From assembly GCA_946699065.1 (NCBI GenBank), contig CAMPDV010000015.1, positions 310,001 through 374,000 on the forward strand: a stretch of DNA of 64,000 bases, written 5' to 3'. Shown here in pieces: positions 1 to 63,685 of this stretch; positions within the stretch are counted from its first letter, which is position 1, and the number at the start of each line of letters is the position of its first letter. The notes below the pieces were generated by a model. It saw only the letters and a program-made list of their open reading frames with translations, ran no database searches and was not told where the DNA came from. The DNA is from Loxodes magnus. Taxonomy: Eukaryota; Ciliophora; Karyorelictea; Loxodida; Loxodidae. A program made the translations under genes and the position numbers.

Positions 1-1540
1 TGGAGTTATGTAAGGAATTTCTCATGGACCAGTTTTAGCATTATTGTATTATGACATAGTAATTAGATATCTGGAAAGTAAAAGTAACTAATTGGAATTT
101 AAATGCCAGGATTCAAGTATTAGCTTCGCTTGTAGAGGATGGGCAGATGATCTTATTCTTCTTTCCAAATCTGTAAAGTAGATGTAAATTTAATAAATGA
201 AGCAAATAAAATTTTTGCATAAACACATTTAAAGATCAATGCCACCAAATCTGAATGCATCTAATTTCTAAAGAAGAATCAGAAATAATAAATTTTAAAT
301 TTATGATTAGGAAATTAACCAATTGCTTAAAAAGAACAAGTAACATATTTAGGAGTTATTCTACATTAGAAGAAGAACTTGAATCCCCATTGCAAAGAAG
401 TTGCATTCAAATATATAGCTGCAATGAAAAAAGCTGTTTTTTAACTGATGAGATATAAGAATGTAACTCCTTGACATTTTAAAACGTTATGTAGACTTTT
501 TAAATTACCTAAAGCAGAATATGGAGTAGATTTAGTATCATGAAGTATTCAAAAAGGAGTAACTGGAGTTCTGAACAGAATAGAATCAAGCATGAGATTA
601 ATTTCAAGAAAAGCTTTTTAAGTAACAACTTCAACATTTAATGAATCATGTTATATAGACCTGAATTGATTATCCTTTAAGCACATTATGGCTATAAAAT
701 TCTTCAGATTCTACAATAAAATTAAATAAGAAAGTATTTATTTTCCAAGATCAACAATAAGCTCTCTTTTCATTAATATATGGAAAAAAGGATTTCAATA
801 CTACGATTAAGTGTAGCAATTATCAGACCTTTATAATATCGATCTGCAGAATTAATAGAATAATACCAATCTTAAAACTTTTACTAAACATACAAGAGAA
901 AAAATACAACAATATTTCTACAAAGTAGCTACTAAAAAATTTATGAGAATTAAAACAGCTAAAGTATATACTGAATAATTTGGTAATCTTTAACAATTTC
1001 CACAAATTACTTATACGAAATTAAACAAATAGTATAGACGAGAAATTATCAGTATATATAAACTTAGAACCTAAACTTATAATTTCCGTAAGGATCTTTA
1101 AGATTGTCATTACCCCATTGATAATCTCTATTGTATGTGTGGAGAGTATGAAACTTTCGAGCTCATCTTTAAATGTGTGTACTATTCTAATATAATGAAT
1201 TGATTATCGGAAAAGATCGGAAATTATGACTTAAGGCGCCTTATACTATACGATCAAGAATATCTAAACTCATTTTCAAGGTCTAAATTAGAGTATTTAG
1301 ACTTATAAATCAAAATATTTCATAAGAAGTTAATGACAAGGAGACTTGAGATACTAGAAATGGAGAATGCAAAAAAGGAAGAAGCTAAAGATGAATAGAA
1401 AGAAGAACTAATTAAAGAAAAATGATGAGATGTAAACAAGATTAAAAAACAATTTAAAAACATTTACTAACGTCTATAATTGAAAGAAGCAATTCTTGCA
1501 ATTAAAGACGTCAAAAAACTCTTTTAGTTTAAATTTATTA
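1..1540 (+). pseudogene. Non-LTR retrotransposon ORF2, 3' part (reverse transcriptase, thumb, C-terminal zinc region), cut by window edge
   Basis: With TAA/TAG as Gln and TGA as Trp, the first bases read QGISHGPVLALL, the reverse transcriptase block just before the catalytic motif. WADDLILLS follows with the two catalytic Asp at 146-151. A one-base frameshift near 180-187 changes frame; the new frame runs to about 1500 and contains the thumb motif YLGV near 347. A Cys-rich C-terminal block of the LINE type (C-x9-C-x-CG-x2-E, then a late Cys) lies at about 1105-1185, with Leu where the usual His would be. The end is Lys/Glu-rich. The finger domain and any endonuclease lie left of the window. 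The frameshift makes this an inactive copy. It sits directly upstream of a 5'-truncated LRR gene, so insertion may have removed that gene's front half. Family assignment is strong; clade is not resolved. Confidence 0.85.
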
Positions 1541-1595
1541 ATTTAAAATTTTTTTTAATATTCTTGTATAATAAAGCATATTAAAGTTCATATTT

Positions 1596-3125
1596 GATTA
1601 CAAAATTCCTTTAATAGCGAGAAATTTGCAAATTACAGCAAGAAAACAAATTCTTTTATTAGTTAAAGTATTATTTTGATTTTTTGTAGTTTTAAAAATT
1701 TTATGGAAAAGATATAGAATATATCGAAAAATATATAATTAAATTTTAAATAATTAAGATACTAAGATGTGAACTAAATTTAATTAAATTAACAATTTTT
1801 TTCCGATTAACTAAATGATAAAATTTTATAGGCAGTTTAGCAAGGAATCTTTTATAAGTTTTAGAATAAATAGATTGATAGTTTAAATAAAATTGAATAT
1901 TTCTCACTTTATGTCTGACCATTTTGCATAAATTAAATTTAAAATACATTTCACTATGTTAAAACTTAAAAGCATTAGAAATTTCTAGTACATAAATATA
2001 TGACGAAGAGTTGAATTTCTTATAAAAGTTAGAAAATCTAGAGTTTATTAATCTTGAAAATAACTAATAGATAACAGGAAGCTTTCTTAATGATTTCTGC
2101 TTGAATTTGAATTTAAACAAAATAATTATTTAGAGTAATATAATTTAATTCCAATTTTTAAAATTATTTAGAAAAAAAGGGAAATTTAATATAAGAGATG
2201 AAAATAAATGATAATAGTTAAGTAGATTATTTTATTAAATACCGTCCTAATGTAAAAGTTATTGCAATGGAAAACTCTAAAGCCTTAAAAAATTAAAGTT
2301 TGCTAGCTTTTTAGTAATTTAATTTAAGAAAGTTTTAGTTAACTCATTCTAGTTTATTTAATGAAGCCTTTACAGAAAATTTTCTCACTAGAAATCTTGA
2401 TGAGATAGGAATTAGATACTTTGACGGATTTGATGATATTCATTTACTTTTAATGTTATAAAATACTCAAAATATGAAAGATATTGATTTATAAGGGTAG
2501 GAATAAATTTAATAATATGGTCTATAGTAAATGGGAAAGTATTGATAAAATTATGTAAATATCATGTTAAGAGATATGAATTATCTTACTGATGAAGTTT
2601 TTAACTTATAATTAGAAAATGTTAAAAACTGAAAAGCTTATGAATATTGACAAATAAAAATCTAAAAAAGTTTTAATTTAAGACTATTAATTAATATTGC
2701 TCAGAAATTACGTAACTTGGGTTGCAAAATTGTTAGATATAAGGAGAAAACTGAATTGATGAGTTACTTAAAAGGAAAAATTAGAAATATTGATTAATAA
2801 AAATATTTTTCCTTTCACTGATTAAAGTGCTATTAAAATAATTAGCAGCGGTAAAAAACTTGATGCATTAATATTAAGTTAATACTAAGATATTGCTTAG
2901 GATGGCTTTCTTGTTTTTCATTAATTAGAAATATCAAATTAATTTTACTAGCATTCTTAGATTTTGGAAATTTCAGAAATGCCTAAATTATCAAGATAAT
3001 GAGCATTAGATTTTAAAAAGAAATGAAAATCAATTTATATAATAAATGAGAACTTAGATTTACTAGATTTAGATACTAAAACTAATACAATTGATTTTAA
3101 GATAAATCCAATCTACACAACTTGA
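1596..3125 (+). pseudogene. F-box/leucine-rich repeat gene copy A, 5'-truncated and frameshifted
   Basis: This copy aligns along its length with the intact paralogues at 7184, 41638 and 51774 (minus) and is closest to the last one, even at the nucleotide level. It starts at the F-box-like segment (REICKLQQENKFFYQLKY near 1620) and lacks the RING and coiled coil; retrotransposon sequence lies immediately upstream instead. The Leu-rich repeats follow (for example NLEFINLENNQQITGSFLND). An extra base in the A/G run near 2168-2182 breaks the frame relative to all three intact copies; translation resumes as GNLIQEMKINDNSQVDYF. The terminal TGA at 3123-3125 aligns with the TGA ending each intact paralogue. 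Truncation plus frameshift make it a pseudogene. Confidence 0.85.
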
Positions 3126-7183: not shown

Positions 7184-9508
7184 ATGTAAGAAAGCTGTTC
7201 TTCCTGCCTAGTTTATTATAGTTATGTACGGATTCCTCTTATTCTTGAATGTGACCATACTAGTTGTATATTTTGTATCGAAAGAGAAAAAAGTGAGAAA
7301 GGATACTTTAAATGCTACTTATGCTTTTGTGTAACAAAAGAGGATTAGTAGTAGTTACTAGCTGATTTAAATATACTTAAAAGAATATAAAAAGAAGAAG
7401 ATGAGCATAAGAAACTATTGATTAGGAACATTAAAATATAAAGAGAGTAAATATAAAGAAAGATATACTTACTATAAGATTAATAAACCTAGTTTAAGTT
7501 AGAAACCTTTAAAAATATTCAATCCTACTTATTTCAAAACTGCTAATAAGTTGAGAATAAACTTTCTTAGACACTTACCACTTTAAGTTAAAATACGTTA
7601 CCACTTGAGTAGCTATAAGACACTAGTTATTAAAATATAGCTATCAATTAAGAGAAACAGTAATAAGAAACTGAATAATAAATAAAGAATGTATAAAAAG
7701 AAGCCAATCTAGAATTATTAAGAATAGAAGAAAAGTCTTAAAAAATATTTTAGCTAATTAATTTTAAATTCCTAGAATAGTATTATTGAAATGAAGACTA
7801 AATAAAACTCTTTAAAATAGAAAATTAATAAGATAAACTATAAATCGAAAACTAAATCCATAATTAATCTGACATGCAAAAAGGAATAGATCTATTTAAC
7901 TAAAATTGCAAACTTTTATAGTTATTTACACAAAATTAATAGAAAATTAGTATTATTTTCTGTAATGTATTTGAATATTTGTGATAATGAGAAATAAGTA
8001 AATTTTAATAAACTTGCAAATATTTCTATTAGTTCAAATATGAGATTCCAACATTATAATTTTATAAATTTATAGGAAGAGATAAATATCATGTGAAACG
8101 AAGATTAGAGTGAAATTTTAAATAGTTAATTAACTCTAATACTTAAAAAATTATTTTTTATGGAGATCGATTATCAATTAGAATGAGTGAATAACTTATA
8201 AAAGAGATTTAGAAAGTTATCATTTATAAAAAGGAGCAGTAATAACTAAACAGTTTAAGTAAAATAGAACAATTTGAATTATGAAATTATCCTAAGTAAG
8301 TTTAAATATCATTATCTGCTTTATCATTTTGCTCCAATTTAAAGATTTTTTAAATTCAAAATTCTATAATTGAAGATTCAAGTTTAAGTTTTATGTAGTA
8401 GCTAGGTAATTTAGAGACTATTTAACTTAATGAATGTGAAAACATATAAGGGAGCTTTCTCAACGATTTTTGCTTAAATTGTAATTTGAAGAAATTAATA
8501 ATATCAAGCTAGATAATTCAATTTGGGTTATTGAAGCAATATTTATAAAAAAAAGGAAATTCTATAGAAGAGATATAGATAAATGACAATAACTAGGTAG
8601 AATGTTTTATGCATTTATGCTCTAACCTAAAAATAATTTAACTTGTTAATGCGTGGAATATTAAAGATTCCTTCTTTAAATTTCTTTCTAAACTGAATCT
8701 AAAAAGTATTTTTATATAAAAAGCATAATTTTCTCCCTAAGCATTTTCAATATATTTCTCTTAAAAGTTTAACCTGCTTGAAGTGTTTTAAATTTCAAAC
8801 TGTGATACATTTAAAGATGAGCATTTGGTTCTTCTAATGTAAAACTCTCCTAATATTAAAAATCTTTATTTGAATGGATTAAAATAGATTTCAAATGAAG
8901 GTTTCTAACAAGTAGGCAATTATGGGTAGAAATATTAACTACTAAGCATTAATAATATGATTCCCTTTTCTATCGAAACTTTCTAATATATCTTTACAAG
9001 ATGTAGAAGGCTTTAATACTTAATTATAAATAAACATTTAGATTTATAAAGTTCAACATTACAAGTTATAAATTAAAATTGTGAATAGCTATTATCACTA
9101 AACCTAGAGAAGTGTCTTATTATAGGAGAAAATTGAATTGAAGAAATACTCAAAATTAAAAAGTTGAAAATTTTAATTTTAACTAAATGTTTATCTCTTA
9201 CTGATTAATAAGTTATTCGAATAAATACTAGTGGAAAAAGACTTTTATAACTAAGTTTGAGCAACAATCAGAATATTACATAACAGACCATATTTGATAC
9301 TAATGAAAAAAGTAAATATAATGAGTTTTACAATAATCTTGATAGTTTGGAAATTAAAAGAATGGAATAGTTATAAAGAAAGTGAGTGATTGATTTTTAA
9401 AAAAATTATAAGTAGATATGAATAAAAAACGAGCATATAGAGTAAATAGGGCTGGAACCTAAAACTAATACACTAGATTGTGAATTAAAAATAAATTATC
9501 CATAGTGA
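7184..9508 (+). CDS. RING / coiled-coil / F-box / leucine-rich repeat protein, copy B (probable E3 ubiquitin ligase component)
   Basis: The frame is continuous for 775 codons from ATG to TGA. Residues 5-47 form a C3HC4 RING: C5, C8, C23, H25, C28, C31, C44 and C47 (SCSSC..., LECDHTSCIFC, KCYLC). A Gln/Lys/Glu-rich, probably coiled-coil stretch follows to about residue 240. Residues about 256-290 look like an F-box (VFEYLWQWEISKFQQTCKYF). The remaining two thirds are irregular Leu-rich repeats. RINGs recruit E2 enzymes; F-box/LRR proteins select substrates for SCF ligases, so a role in ubiquitylation is inferred. The ATG sits four codons before the first RING Cys in B and C and six in D, which supports this start. 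The closing TGA matches the TGA position in the three paralogues. Many in-frame TAA/TAG read as Gln and several TGA as Trp. The exact repeat class was not tested. Confidence 0.85.
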
Positions 9509-41637: not shown

Positions 41638-43947
41638 ATGGAAGAAAAATGTTATTCATGCTTAGTTTATTATAGCTCTATAAGAATACCTCTTATTCTA
41701 GAATGTGGACATTCAAGTTGTCAATTTTGTATTGAAAGAGAGTAAATAGAAAAAGGATATTTTAAATGCTATTTATGTTTCTGCCTAACTAAAGAAAAAT
41801 CCTCCTAGTTAATAATAAACTTATCAACACTGCTGCAATCTTAGAATATCCAAGACTAGATTTAACTCAAAACGTGAAGTAATTAGAACAATCGAAATTA
41901 TTAAGAGTAACTAAAAGAAACGATATTCAAGTTTCAAGAAACTCAAAATGCAACTACCCTGAAATTAGATAGGATTATTCAAGAAAAAATATTTAGCAGT
42001 AGTAATCTAATTCTGAGTTAACTTTAATAAAAGCTTTTAGATCTCGATCAAAACATACAAATCCTAGAACTTCCTTAAAATAAAGACTTAAACTAGAAAA
42101 TTTAAATAGAAAGCTAAAATGAATAAAAATAGATTGACTATATGTAAGTAAAAGATCTTCTAAATAAAACAAACGAAGAAATACTAAATTTAGAAGAATA
42201 AAAAAGAATTTTGCTAAATATATTTTAATAAAACTAATAAAATTAATATTACTGAGCCGAAGAATAAAAAGAATAATAGAAAAGAGAAGAAATAAAAAAT
42301 TAGAAAGACATAAATAGTAAAATTTAAGTAAATTTGATATAATAATAAAAAAAGCAATTTAATTTAGTAAAATTCATTCAGGCAAACTAATATCAAGCTA
42401 GGTTAACTTTCAAACTAATATTTGAATTTCTAGATGTATGAGATTTCAACAGATTTTAGTAAGCAAATAGTTACTTCTTTAAATTTTAATGATATATTAA
42501 AGAGATTTCATTTGGAAAGTATTATGGATAAGAAAAAAATTATATTAAAAATAGGATAGAATGAAGTTTAAAAGCATTAAAGACTTGTGATGCCTAAAAT
42601 ATATGTATATCAGGAGGATAATTTTAAAAATAATTAAATTCTTAAATAATAAAAGAATTTAATAAAATAATCAGCTATAAAGTATAAAGTTAGCAGATTA
42701 ATAGTGTTAACTAAATAAAAAGCTTTCACTTATGTGCATGACCTACAAAGAATATGATCGAAATTCCTTATTTCTAATATTTTTAAAATCTCTAAATATT
42801 GATAATTCATCACACACTTTTACATGACAATAATCTTAGTTTCATGCAACATTTGAAATAATTGGAATCTATTGAACTTACTGACACTGAATAAATAAAA
42901 GGAAGTTTTCTTTTAGATTTTTGTTTAGCTTTAAATTTAAAAAAGATAGAAATAGAAAGTGGAATAATATAATTTAAGGATTTAAAGTAATATCTATAAA
43001 TAAAAGGAAATATAGTAGAATAGATATAAATAAATGATAATAGTTAGATAGAGTGCTTTATTAATCTGTGTTAGAAAGTAAAAATTATAAAAGTTCAGGG
43101 GTAAAATGTTAATGATAGATTATTATAGACTATAAAGGAGTTCGATCTTAGATAATTAGAACTCAAATAAATGAATTTATCATCTAAAGCTTTTTCTAAC
43201 TATTTTAGTAAAGTAAGAAATAATTTGGAGATTGTGAAAATTAATTATTGCGAAAACTTCGATGAAGAAAACTTACTTCTGTTATTATAAAATACACCAA
43301 AATTGTAAGAACTCGATTTGTAAGGATTGGAAATGATTTTAGATTAAGGGATTTAATATATAGGTAGATATGGATAAAATTATAAAGCATTAATAATTGG
43401 ACATATGAATATTTAATCTACTAAAACTTTAAATTAAATTTTCTTTTAATGCTAAAACCTTTAAAAAATAAGCATTAAAAAGAATAATGATCTATAAGGT
43501 GAAACGATTAAATTGATAAGTTAGAATTGTAAATAGTTATTTTCATTTGAACTAGATGAATGTTATGTGTTAGGTGAAAACTGAATTGATGATATACTGA
43601 AAATGGAAAAATTAGATACTTTAATTTTAGTAAAATGCTTGTCAGTAACAGATATAGAAGTGCAAAAAATAGTTTCTAGTGGTAAAAAACTGAACTTATT
43701 AAACTTAAGTGATAATAAGAATATTTCAGAAAATTCATTTTAAGCTTTCGATTAATAAAGAGAATCTACAGAATTTTATCAAAACCTACAAATTTTTGAT
43801 ATATAGAGCATGCCTTAATTATCAAATTAATGGGTAATATAATTGAAATAAAAATGAAAACACATATAAATAAAAAATGACTTTTTATAAACTAGAGGAG
43901 AGAATAAATAAAGTAAAACAATTGATTTTCAATTAAGTAACGTTTGA
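41638..43947 (+). CDS. RING / coiled-coil / F-box / leucine-rich repeat protein, copy C
   Basis: ATG (41638) to TGA (43945-43947) gives 770 codons in one frame. The RING covers C5, C8, C23, H25, C28, C31, C44 and C47 (KCYSC, LECGHSSCQFC, KCYLC), nearly identical to copy B. Residues 60-245 are Gln/Glu/Lys-rich and probably coiled coil. An F-box-like segment, KLIFEFLDVWDFNRFQQANSYF, starts at residue 259; its Trp is TGA. Leu-rich repeats follow (LQELDLQGLEMI, KISIKKNNDLQG, LDTLILVKCLSVTD, LNLLNLSDNKNIS), resembling the AMN1/FBXL style with a Cys or Asn per repeat. The stop aligns with the TGA of copies A, B and D, although the sequence around it differs. A probable substrate-selecting E3 component; having RING and F-box in one chain is unusual. 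The stop is followed directly by TAG. Confidence 0.87.
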
Positions 43948-51773: not shown

Positions 51774-54059
51774 TCAGTTTAAATAGATTGGACTTATCTA
51801 AAGATCAACTTTATTAGTTTCAATATCTAAACCTAGTAAATCTAAGCTCTCATTTATTATATAAATTGATTTTCACTTCTTTTCCAAGTCTATTACTCAT
51901 TATGCTGATAATTTAGGCATTTCTAAAATTTCCAAAGTCTAAAGATGTTCATAAAATTAATTTGATATTTCTTATTAATCAAAAGCAAAAAAAGCATTCT
52001 AAGTAATATGCTAGTACTAATTCAATTTTAATTCTCATAATTTTTTACCACTGCTAATTATTTTAGTAACACTTTAATCAGTGAAAGGAAAAGTATTTTT
52101 TAAAGTCAACTATTTTATCTTTTTTATCTTAAGTACTTCATCAATTCAATTTTCTCCTTAGATCTAACAATCCTACAACGTAAGTTATGTCATTTCTGAG
52201 CAATATTAATTTAAAGTCTAGAATGAAGAACTTTTTAAATTTTGATTAGTCATTATTCATAAGTTTTTCAGTTTTAAACATTTTTTAATTATATAGTTTA
52301 AAGCTTTATCAGTAAGAAACTTCATTTCTCCAAACATAATAGTTTTATAATTTTAACCATAATCTCCTATTTACTAAAGACCATATTCTGAAACTTATTC
52401 TTATCCTTATAAATCAATTTCTTTCAGGTTTGGAGCATTTTACAATAAAAGAAGTAAATGCATATCATCAAAATTATCACAGTATTGAATATCTATTTCT
52501 TCCAGATTTACAAATTAATGAGAAAAATATTCTGTCAAGGCTTCATTAGGCAACCTAATATCATTATACTAAAATTTTCTTAAACCAAGTTTAGAAAAAG
52601 TTAGCAAACTTTAGCTTGTTAAGAGTTCAGATTTATCCATCATAATAATTTTTACATTAGGACAGTATTTAATAAAGTAATCTACTTAACTATTATCATT
52701 TATTTTTATCTCTTCTATTAAATTTCCCTTTTTTTCAAGATAATTCTTAAGATATTGGAATTAAAAAAATTAGCTTTTAATAATTATTTTCTTTAAATTC
52801 AAGTTTAAACAGAAATCATTAAGAAAGCTTCCTGTTATCTATTAGTCATTTTCAAACTGAATAAACTCTAGATTTGGTAATTTTTAAAGGAAGCTTAACT
52901 CCTTGTCTTATATTTCTGTATTAGAAATTTCTAAAGTTTTTAAATTCTAACATAATGTAATGCTATCTAAATTTAGTTTAATGAGAAATGGTCAGACAGA
53001 AAGTGAGAAATATTCTATTTTATTTAAACTATCAAACTACTTATTCTAAAACTTCAATACAATACCTTACTAAACTGCCTTTAAAATTTAGTTATTTAAT
53101 TTATCGGAAAAATATTCCCCGTTAATTGAAATTCGTTTCACATCAGAGTTTCTTAATTATTTTAAACCCCATTATATTCTTTTTTAGATAAACTCTTTAT
53201 CAAATCCATAAAACTTTTAAAATCATAATTAATCAAATTTATATTTTAACTAATAAAATTTCTTATTCACTTACTATAATTTGCAAATTTCTCCCTAGTA
53301 AAGGAATTTTGTGATTGAATATAAAATTTAATATGATTTGTTTTACTAGAAGATAGGAAAAAGATCTTAAAATCTAAGTTATGATGATTTCTTGTTTTCT
53401 TAAAGATTTCTTTCCATCATTCATTAGATTTATTAGTCTTCATTCCAATAATAAGGAGTTACATATTTTTCTTTAAGCATGGCTAGTAATTAGTTGGAAT
53501 TCTCATCTATTTTTTAAAGCTCATAGAAAGCTTAATTATATAGAAGTTTTATCTCCGCTTACTATTAAAGAGTTTCTCTCTTTGGCTAAATTTTTTGATT
53601 CTTGTGGCTGTTTATTGTCTATTCAAGTATCTATATTTCCTAATTAAGATTGACAAGTTTTTGATTAAGTTTATTTTGAATAGAATTGCAGTTCCTGAAT
53701 ATAAAGTCTTGCAATATTTTTTCTACTTAAAGTTTAGTTTTATTCTGCTTTTCTATAAACTGTTCAATTGTTCTTTTTATATTTTCTTGATGGCTTTTTA
53801 AATTTTATATTTTTCACTTTAGAACTTAGATTTAGTCATACTTTCCAATTTATTTATGGACTATCATTAAGTTTACTAATAAAAGTTATGAACTTTTACA
53901 AGTAAGATGTTAACATTAAACGCACTTGAAATGTCCTCACATACTTTATCCGTTTTGAAGGCAAGAAATACAACAAGTATGCTCACATTCTAAAATAAGA
54001 GGAACATTTATAGAATTAAAATTATTTTAGCAATAAAAACATTTTTCTTGTTCTTACAT
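51774..54059 (-). CDS. RING / coiled-coil / F-box / leucine-rich repeat protein, copy D
   Basis: ATG (54057-54059) to TGA (51774-51776) gives 762 codons; a second TGA follows at once. The RING uses C7, C10, C25, H27, C30, C33, C46 and C49 (KCFYC, LECEHTCCISC, KCVQC). The middle is Gln/Lys-rich. The F-box-like segment (GEICKLQQVNKKFYQLKY) lies near residue 257-275, the same position as in B and C. Leu-rich repeats follow (LKTLEISNTEIQDKELSFL, NLEFIQFENDQQITGSFLND, NLKEIDLQGQEQ, IKQLTLKNTFPFTDQS). It is most similar to pseudogene A at 1596-3125, which has lost its RING. Frame arithmetic between RING, F-box and stop is consistent, so the gene is intact. A probable E3 ligase component; transcription is away from the relic at 50705. 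Confidence 0.87.
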
Positions 54060-61897: not shown

Positions 61898-63685
61898 TCA
61901 TGACTCTAGCTTGTTCCATTTTTCAATAGTTAAATCGTAGTGATATAATTCGCAGTAACTATCAAATTGATATACTCGATCTCTACTGAAAATTGGTTGA
62001 GTAAAGTCATAATATTAAATTTGCCCTCCAGGGAATCTTTCTCCTGACTATTTAACGATTTTATAGTCATAGATTTAAGTCTATTATTCGTCATTATTTC
62101 TATAAATTAAAAAGTGGTTCTTAGTAGGTATGAAGATTGCTGTAGATGAGCTTTTTAAAGTTAAAACCTATTGGCAGTCAATCCATTCATTTTTTTATTC
62201 TTCATATATTTAGATTTTATCTACAAAGGTATTTTGCTACTGATTATTTCCACCAAAAACATGGATTTACTAATTATTTTAATCGCACCCAAAGAATGCA
62301 ACAGGTAATTTGATTGAACTAATAGTTTAGAAATTTTTTTAGTTTAGATTGAAGACTTCACATTCAGCAACATCTAAATATATACCATTTTCCATTTTGC
62401 AACCTGAGATTATAAAAACCGTATCTTTTTTATTAAAATTAGTTCTATGCCATTATCTTTGAAATTACATTTAGAATTCCTCTTTACTTTCAGAACGCAG
62501 ATCGAATCGAGTTTTTTGCTAGATTGACCCACCTGATATAATATGAGTTTAGTCCTTAATTTATTCTATTTAAATATCATATAAATAGTTTTGTTAAAAT
62601 TCATTTAAGTCTTCAACCTATAATTTACTTTCATCTATTTTGTATTACTTCTTTTTATCTTATTAAAAGTCAAGTGTTGATATATAATTGAACTCATACC
62701 CTTTTTAAACTGGTAATTATTCTTCTGGCTGATCTTTTATCTCTATTTTCACTTGAAATGTTTCATTCATTTACTACTCGATTTGTTGATTAGAAGGATT
62801 TAATTGAATCGGTATTGATAAAAATTCTATATTTTATACTTATGGAGAAGATGGCAATTATATTTGAGAATTTATTTTACATAAAACCCGTAATTTCTCA
62901 ATTATATCATTCAATGTTAGCCTATCTTGGGGATTTTAATTCCAGCATCCTTCTATCAGTTCTGCAAATTCTTTTGGACAATCTTCAGGGATTTCCTCTC
63001 TTTCACCCTACTTAACACTCTACATTATTATTGTATCTTCTTTTATTTCACAATAAGGGATTTTTCTTGAAGCTATTTCCCAAAAAACTATACCTAGAGC
63101 ATAAACATCTGACTCTTTACTAATTTTAGGTTTTAAACCCATTGTTTCAGGAGCCATTCATCTTATAGATCCCTCTATCTTTACCGATGTTCTAGTTTTA
63201 GTTTCTGTCTTCACTTAAGAAAGACCAAAGTCGGTAATTTTAGCTAATTTATCTTTAGTCAAAAGTACATTTAAGCTTTTGAAATCTTTGTGTAGAATAT
63301 TTTGATTATGAATATATTTAAGACCAGAAGCTATTTCAAGACTTATTTTGTATCTTAAATCCCAAGAAATTTACTCTTTACTATGCAATAAATCAAATAA
63401 AGATTAATCCATCAGCTCCATAACTAGTGATAACGGTTGTGGACAATATCCGAAAAGTTAAATGACATTAGGATGACGAAGATTTGCCATTATATTGATC
63501 TCATTTTAGAATCCCTCTAAGAGTTCTTGACTTAATTGCTGTAAATGTAAGTATTTTATAGCTACTGGATTTGTATAATCCATTTTTCCTTTCCATACTG
63601 TTCCAAAGCCTCCTGATTTAAGTTCTTATTCTTTCTACAGTTAACTTTCTTAAATTAGAAGGTTGTTTTATAGAGTAAGAGCCAT
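61898..63685 (-). CDS. TKL-type protein kinase with C-terminal Kelch-like propeller, copy 2
   Basis: 596 codons from ATG (63683-63685) to TGA (61898-61900). The kinase features are those of copy 1 (SGGFGTVWKG, HKDFKSLN, ITDFGLSQVK, SIRWMAPE with TGA for Trp), again HKD rather than HRD. The C-terminal half keeps the Kelch-like FFGCDQNNQQIHVFGGNNQ and GERFPGGQIQYYDF segments. The linker after the kinase domain is where the two copies differ most. A 319-bp block of the kinase domain (62971-63289) is identical to copy 1 (35051-35369), including third positions, whereas flanking coding sequence is diverged. The product is probably cytoplasmic. Both genes are intact, so both are likely expressed. 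Confidence 0.93.

Follow-up and report, generated by a model that had tools for sequence, protein, structure and literature searches.

A RING finger joined to an F-box and leucine-rich repeats in an expanded family of predicted ubiquitin-ligase receptors in the ciliate Loxodes magnus

The window, a 64,000-nucleotide stretch of Loxodes magnus DNA (C15:310001-374000, within a 705.7-Mb assembly), contains three complete copies and one remnant of a gene predicting a RING - linker - F-box - leucine-rich repeat (LRR) protein. In the accessible part of the genome paper, the macronuclear assembly of this species is given as 706 Mbp and requires genetic code 27 (PMC11441545), in which TAA and TAG specify Gln and TGA specifies either Trp or stop. 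Copy C (41638..43944, plus strand; 769 aa) was identified from its code 27 translation, a match in its own genome (L001) and its dN/dS ratios, and it ends at an inferred TGA stop (43945-43947, plus strand). From the N-terminus, it comprises a C3HC4 RING (residues 5-47; 41650..41778), a Gln-rich linker (residues 53-248; 41794..42381) that places ~200 aa between RING and F-box, a divergent F-box (residues 256-285; 42403..42492) and an FBXL-type LRR array (residues ~301-745; 42538..43872). The limits of the last two are approximate, and the F-box assignment draws on a family Pfam scan, hhalign and an alignment with the RING-less homologue L072. Copy B (7184..9505, plus strand; 774 aa; RING ~7196-7324, F-box ~7952-8044) and copy D (51777..54059, minus strand; 761 aa; RING ~53913-54041, F-box ~53217-53330) have the same architecture. 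The three copies can be aligned end to end at ~40% identity, and each runs in a single frame from ATG to TGA. The earlier note had read a complete N-terminal RING, an F-box-like motif and Leu-rich repeats in one polypeptide; the RING has 8/8 ligands in each of B, C and D, and one predicted polypeptide indeed holds all three modules.

Copy A (~1501..3122, plus strand) is a frame-broken F-box/LRR remnant with matches in three frames; a match to the RING part was looked for there and none was found. This copy was also compared with L011 and L012. Upstream of it, a segment with a reverse-transcriptase-like look by eye gave no Pfam match. A minus-strand frame at 61898-63157 may encode a kinase-Kelch protein: its residues 1-89 match the C-terminal half of a protein kinase (PF07714, E 2.8e-18), and weak Kelch repeats come after them.

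Three conserved Trp columns in the 29 family rows mix TGA and TGG codons (12/6, 22/6 and 17/12), in support of a sense reading of TGA. In B, C and D the final sense TGA stands 29, 30 and 33 codons, respectively, ahead of the inferred stop. This spacing agrees with the accessible part of the Loxodes genome paper, which describes coding TGA as depleted over the ~20 codons that precede a true stop (PMC11441545).

A search of the organism's own genome, in which 58 of 2967 first-look candidates were scored, places the family at a minimum of 58 sites; these represent 29 types after clustering at 90% identity, in agreement with the multigene family, perhaps expanded, that had been proposed from the window. 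L072 came to light by another route, outside this search. Fourteen of the 58 scored places encode a RING and a long linker and form the clade to which B, C and D belong; 12 of them fall in the 190-436 kb interval of C15, with one more on C98 and another on C61. A RING with a short linker is found at 37 places, on contigs such as C141, C187, C305 and C1129. Six places have no recognised RING in the stretches examined, three with a Cys-rich N-terminus and three without. By eye, a Cys-rich, B-box-like N-terminus replaces the RING in L014, L030 and L054 (C88, C96); Pfam found no B-box in three extended members lacking a RING. The remaining place, L055 on C141, has a complete RING in a frame that differs from that of its F-box/LRR part.

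Comparison of flanking DNA revealed that in four C15 pairs the similarity covers the gene and reaches just 62-392 bases beyond it on each side, and these short extensions indicate gene-sized duplications on C15. Among the short-type pairs, 11 of the 14 compared were alike across all of the fetched flank in common, so that duplicates and haplotigs are indistinguishable there. Inspection by eye of the edges of two recent pairs for signs of retroposition disclosed neither poly-A nor a target-site repeat. A look for viral relatives gave 54 stretches that fit a pattern, none of which was confirmed. L025 and L034 form a mosaic, with 0 non-synonymous differences in RING, linker and F-box and 9% in the LRR, as if copies exchange domains.

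Because code 27 has no dedicated stop, an open frame is little proof that RING and F-box/LRR belong together; frames run on, and the two parts could be separate transcripts or genes that share a frame by chance. We regard this as exceedingly improbable, since all RING-bearing places but L055 (51/52) have RING and F-box in a common frame, the duplicated unit covers the whole gene in the four C15 pairs, and the linker itself has dN/dS values of 0.29-0.45 in C/L002, C/B, C/D and L005/L007. Six other pairs gave linker values of 0.18-0.99, and four more had no computable value. A coiled-coil linker was considered and is not claimed: the heptad power was attained by <=0.05 of shuffles for 3/11 linkers vs 0/11 for an LRR control stretch, and mean power was strongest at a period of 3.6, not 3.5.

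Across 14 family pairs dN/dS ranged from 0.10 to 0.63, all below 1, with whole-gene values of 0.32 for C/L002, 0.35 for C/B and 0.38 for C/D. Overall, the family is under purifying selection, and the ratios fit functional genes. The differences at the three codon positions numbered 18, 19 and 18 in the B/D RING and 52, 40 and 49 in the L005/L007 linker; thus the third position is not the most variable in every region. In the free nucleotide alignments used for this comparison, the gaps were not all multiples of three. The view that the family consists mostly of decaying pseudogenes or of assembly duplicates would agree with the single ligand lost from some short-type RINGs (7/37), the broken frames of L055 and copy A, and the 11/14 short-type pairs alike over all flank compared. 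Ratios below 1 in every pair argue against it, as does the end of C15 pair similarity close outside the gene, which is unexpected for haplotigs, and we rate this reading as very unlikely.

Searched as a single protein, copy C had both its RING and its LRR under the Pfam cut-off (zf-RING_UBOX, E 5.8e-4). In the family as a whole, zf-RING_UBOX was detected at E <=1 in 23/29 non-redundant members (best 2.1e-7), and the RING of L018 lay above the cut-off; PDB matches of the RING include TRIM RINGs. All eight C3HC4 ligands are intact in 14/14 long-linker and 30/37 short-linker members, and each of the remaining seven short-linker RINGs has lost exactly one. In structures of RING-E2 complexes, the residue two past the first RING ligand (C1+2) is usually Ile, Leu or Val and contacts the E2. 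This residue is Ile or Leu in 37/37 short-linker members and in 0/14 long-linker members, which have Ser (seven), Gln (three), Pro (two), Lys (one) or Tyr (one) instead; the CPxC proline occurs in 1/14 long-linker RINGs. RING dN/dS was 0.09 for C/B, 0.14 for C/L002, 0.58 for C/D and 0.55 for B/D. With the ligands kept and the Ile/Leu lost, the zinc fold of the long type appears constrained but its E2 binding doubtful, and the RING of copy C may be weak or non-catalytic.

These data raise the possibility, which we entertain only tentatively, that the proteins are SCF receptors whose RING is non-catalytic throughout and would serve as a zinc-binding fold for dimerisation or localisation. The full set of ligands in long-type RINGs devoid of the E2-contact residue is in keeping with such a role, as are the low RING ratios of C/B and C/L002. 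The higher ratios of C/D and B/D do not fit it, however, and the canonical residue kept in the short clade makes E2 binding plausible at least there.

The F-box proved the hardest module to place by sequence. The earlier note had put an F-box-like motif near residue 258, and in copy C alone Pfam reported no F-box at E up to 10; copy D as a single protein gave F-box-like at E 0.081. With two near-copies set aside, a scan of the other 27 family windows gave F-box-like in 18/27 at E <=1, with a best value of 3.4e-5, and F-box in 13/27, while five other Pfam families appeared in one member each. The F-box of L024 scored 22.9 bits in the full-length protein against a cut-off of 20.5, and 20.5 bits, exactly at the cut-off, in the isolated window. 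We also compared the family windows by hhalign with a profile of ten F-boxes, drawn from 12 F-box-like matches in the same genome, and obtained E 5.5e-7 (probability 92), or E 2.2e-4 (probability 45%) without two rows close to the family. In a search of the PDB, the F-box profile had KDM2A as its top match at E 0.15 only, which is not taken as proof.

The closest link to a regular F-box is provided by L072, a RING-less homologue on contig C155 that emerged when one of the two rows close to the family was read further. Its 533-aa reading opens with an F-box of the LP type (PF00646, E 7.1e-8), which scores 32.5 bits against a cut-off of 20.5. No RING-like motif was found in three frames of the 1,428 bases that precede this reading. 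The LRR block of L072 aligns with copy C residues 261-729 at 33% over 470 columns (E 7e-74), and the alignment begins inside the F-box. Together with the family scans, this homology identifies the middle segment of copy C as an F-box by descent, so the predicted motif stands at its proposed position, detected by HMM in the family and placed in copy C through L072.

The LP dipeptide at the start of an F-box is common, not universal; it occurs in 0/27 family windows and is likewise missing from the printed part of the KDM2A F-box chain, although the KDM2A F-box binds Skp1. F-box dN/dS is high in long-type pairs (C/L002 0.76, C/B 0.53, C/D 0.74, L011/L012 0.76), and the long-type F-box is loosely constrained; elsewhere, values were 0.06 (L018/L028), 0.13 (L005/L007), 0.14 (L017/L048) and 0.14 (L024/L015). 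One could suppose from the divergence of this segment, the missing LP and ratios up to 0.76, together with the E2-contact Ile/Leu of all short-type RINGs, that the proteins are cullin-independent RING ligases, in which the RING would supply E3 activity, the LRR would bind the target and the F-box segment would be a vestigial spacer that does not bind Skp1. This is unlikely in our judgement, given that an F-box is still recognisable in 18 of the 27 windows, that other pairs conserve it well (0.06-0.14), that KDM2A sets a precedent for the missing LP, and that the long-type RINGs look like poor E2 binders.

The Leu-rich repeats form a C-terminal array of the FBXL type, as the family profile matched FBXL2 (1e-26), FBXL17 (2e-25), RAD7 (6e-11), TIR1 (7e-8) and SKP2 (9e-8) in the PDB; in the Pfam search, LRR_At5g56370 was found in 16/29 members at E <=1.

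To trace the fusion, a tree was built on the F-box/LRR columns, with a midpoint root for drawing only. The short RING clade had support of 100/100 and the long RING clade a weak 78/55. L072 grouped with the three members that lack a zinc finger altogether (92/95), and the Cys-rich trio fell with the short clade (95/95). Forcing the 23 RING-bearing rows together cost 11.6 log units (p-AU 0.034), which counts against a single origin of the RING-bearing members, though weakly, as the group was chosen after the trees were seen. We lean towards a RING that was gained twice, or gained once and then lost or replaced.

F-box/LRR proteins usually serve one class of ubiquitin ligase as substrate receptors, and RING and F-box normally reside in separate subunits of a cullin ligase. 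Cullins and other F-box genes are present in the genome, with 15 cullin matches, 9 of them nearly full length, and 12 F-box-like matches, each above the cut-off. Judged from sequence, the family probably represents an expanded set of SCF substrate receptors of the FBXL branch with an added N-terminal RING. In such a receptor, the F-box would dock the protein onto Skp1-cullin and the LRR arc would hold the substrate. The short-type RING, with its E2-contact residue kept, could bring a second E2; the long-type RING of B, C and D, which has lost this residue, would more likely dimerise, restrain or scaffold the ligase. The proposal that these proteins are self-contained E3 ligases is weakened by the absence of Ile/Leu from the E2 contact in every long-type RING and of LP from every F-box window. 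A bolder version, conceivable but in our view improbable, would make them dual-module ligases, that is, SCF receptors with their own E2-recruiting RING, usable inside SCF or alone, in which the RING was gained twice (or gained once, then lost or replaced once) and was combined with dozens of LRR specificities.

Like the Loxodes family, FBXL2, FBXL17, SKP2 and TIR1 have an F-box followed by LRRs of the same type, whereas the Loxodes F-box is without LP; to our knowledge, none of the four has an N-terminal RING. KDM2A/KDM2B and FBXL19 also combine zinc finger(s), F-box and LRR in one chain, but with CXXC/PHD fingers and JmjC where Loxodes has a RING. TRIM proteins share an N-terminal RING and a C-terminal recognition domain, which is SPRY rather than F-box/LRR; no TRIM-type B-box appeared in the 29 members among the 25 of 45 Pfam families listed. 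In RAD7/Rad16 (RAD7 being the match at E 6e-11), an LRR receptor teams with a RING protein on two polypeptides, in contrast to the single chain in Loxodes. Trypanosome ESAG8 has RING and LRR in one chain, like the Loxodes family, but we know of no F-box in it. Emi1/FBXO5, which has no LRR, acts on APC/C.

Two further related proteins are described in the accessible part of a single paper (PMC10539598): Dictyostelium FbxwD, a RING - F-box - WD40 protein for which the authors suggest two ligase activities, and Emi1/FBXO5, with an F-box and a RING-like zinc finger. FbxwD also has an N-terminal RING and an F-box in one chain, but it carries WD40 in place of the LRRs and large family of Loxodes; Emi1/FBXO5 shares F-box and zinc finger (PMC10539598, same part). 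To call the family an undescribed system, as had been done, is therefore too strong, since FbxwD already fuses RING and F-box (PMC10539598). In the open-licence literature, we found no description of the RING-F-box-LRR combination or of the Loxodes family, and no paper for 'karyorelict' with 'F-box'; the main text of the Loxodes genome paper, in the part accessible, has 0 mentions of F-box or RING (PMC11441545). The fusion of RING and F-box thus has precedent, and its LRR version is apparently undescribed in that literature.

The role of a RING inside an SCF receptor is called unknown in the accessible part of the FbxwD paper (PMC10539598). Clades with and without the E2-contact residue, together with RING-less sisters in one genome, would offer a natural series for testing that role, and the family would add an expanded group of predicted ubiquitin ligases to a deep, little-studied ciliate lineage.
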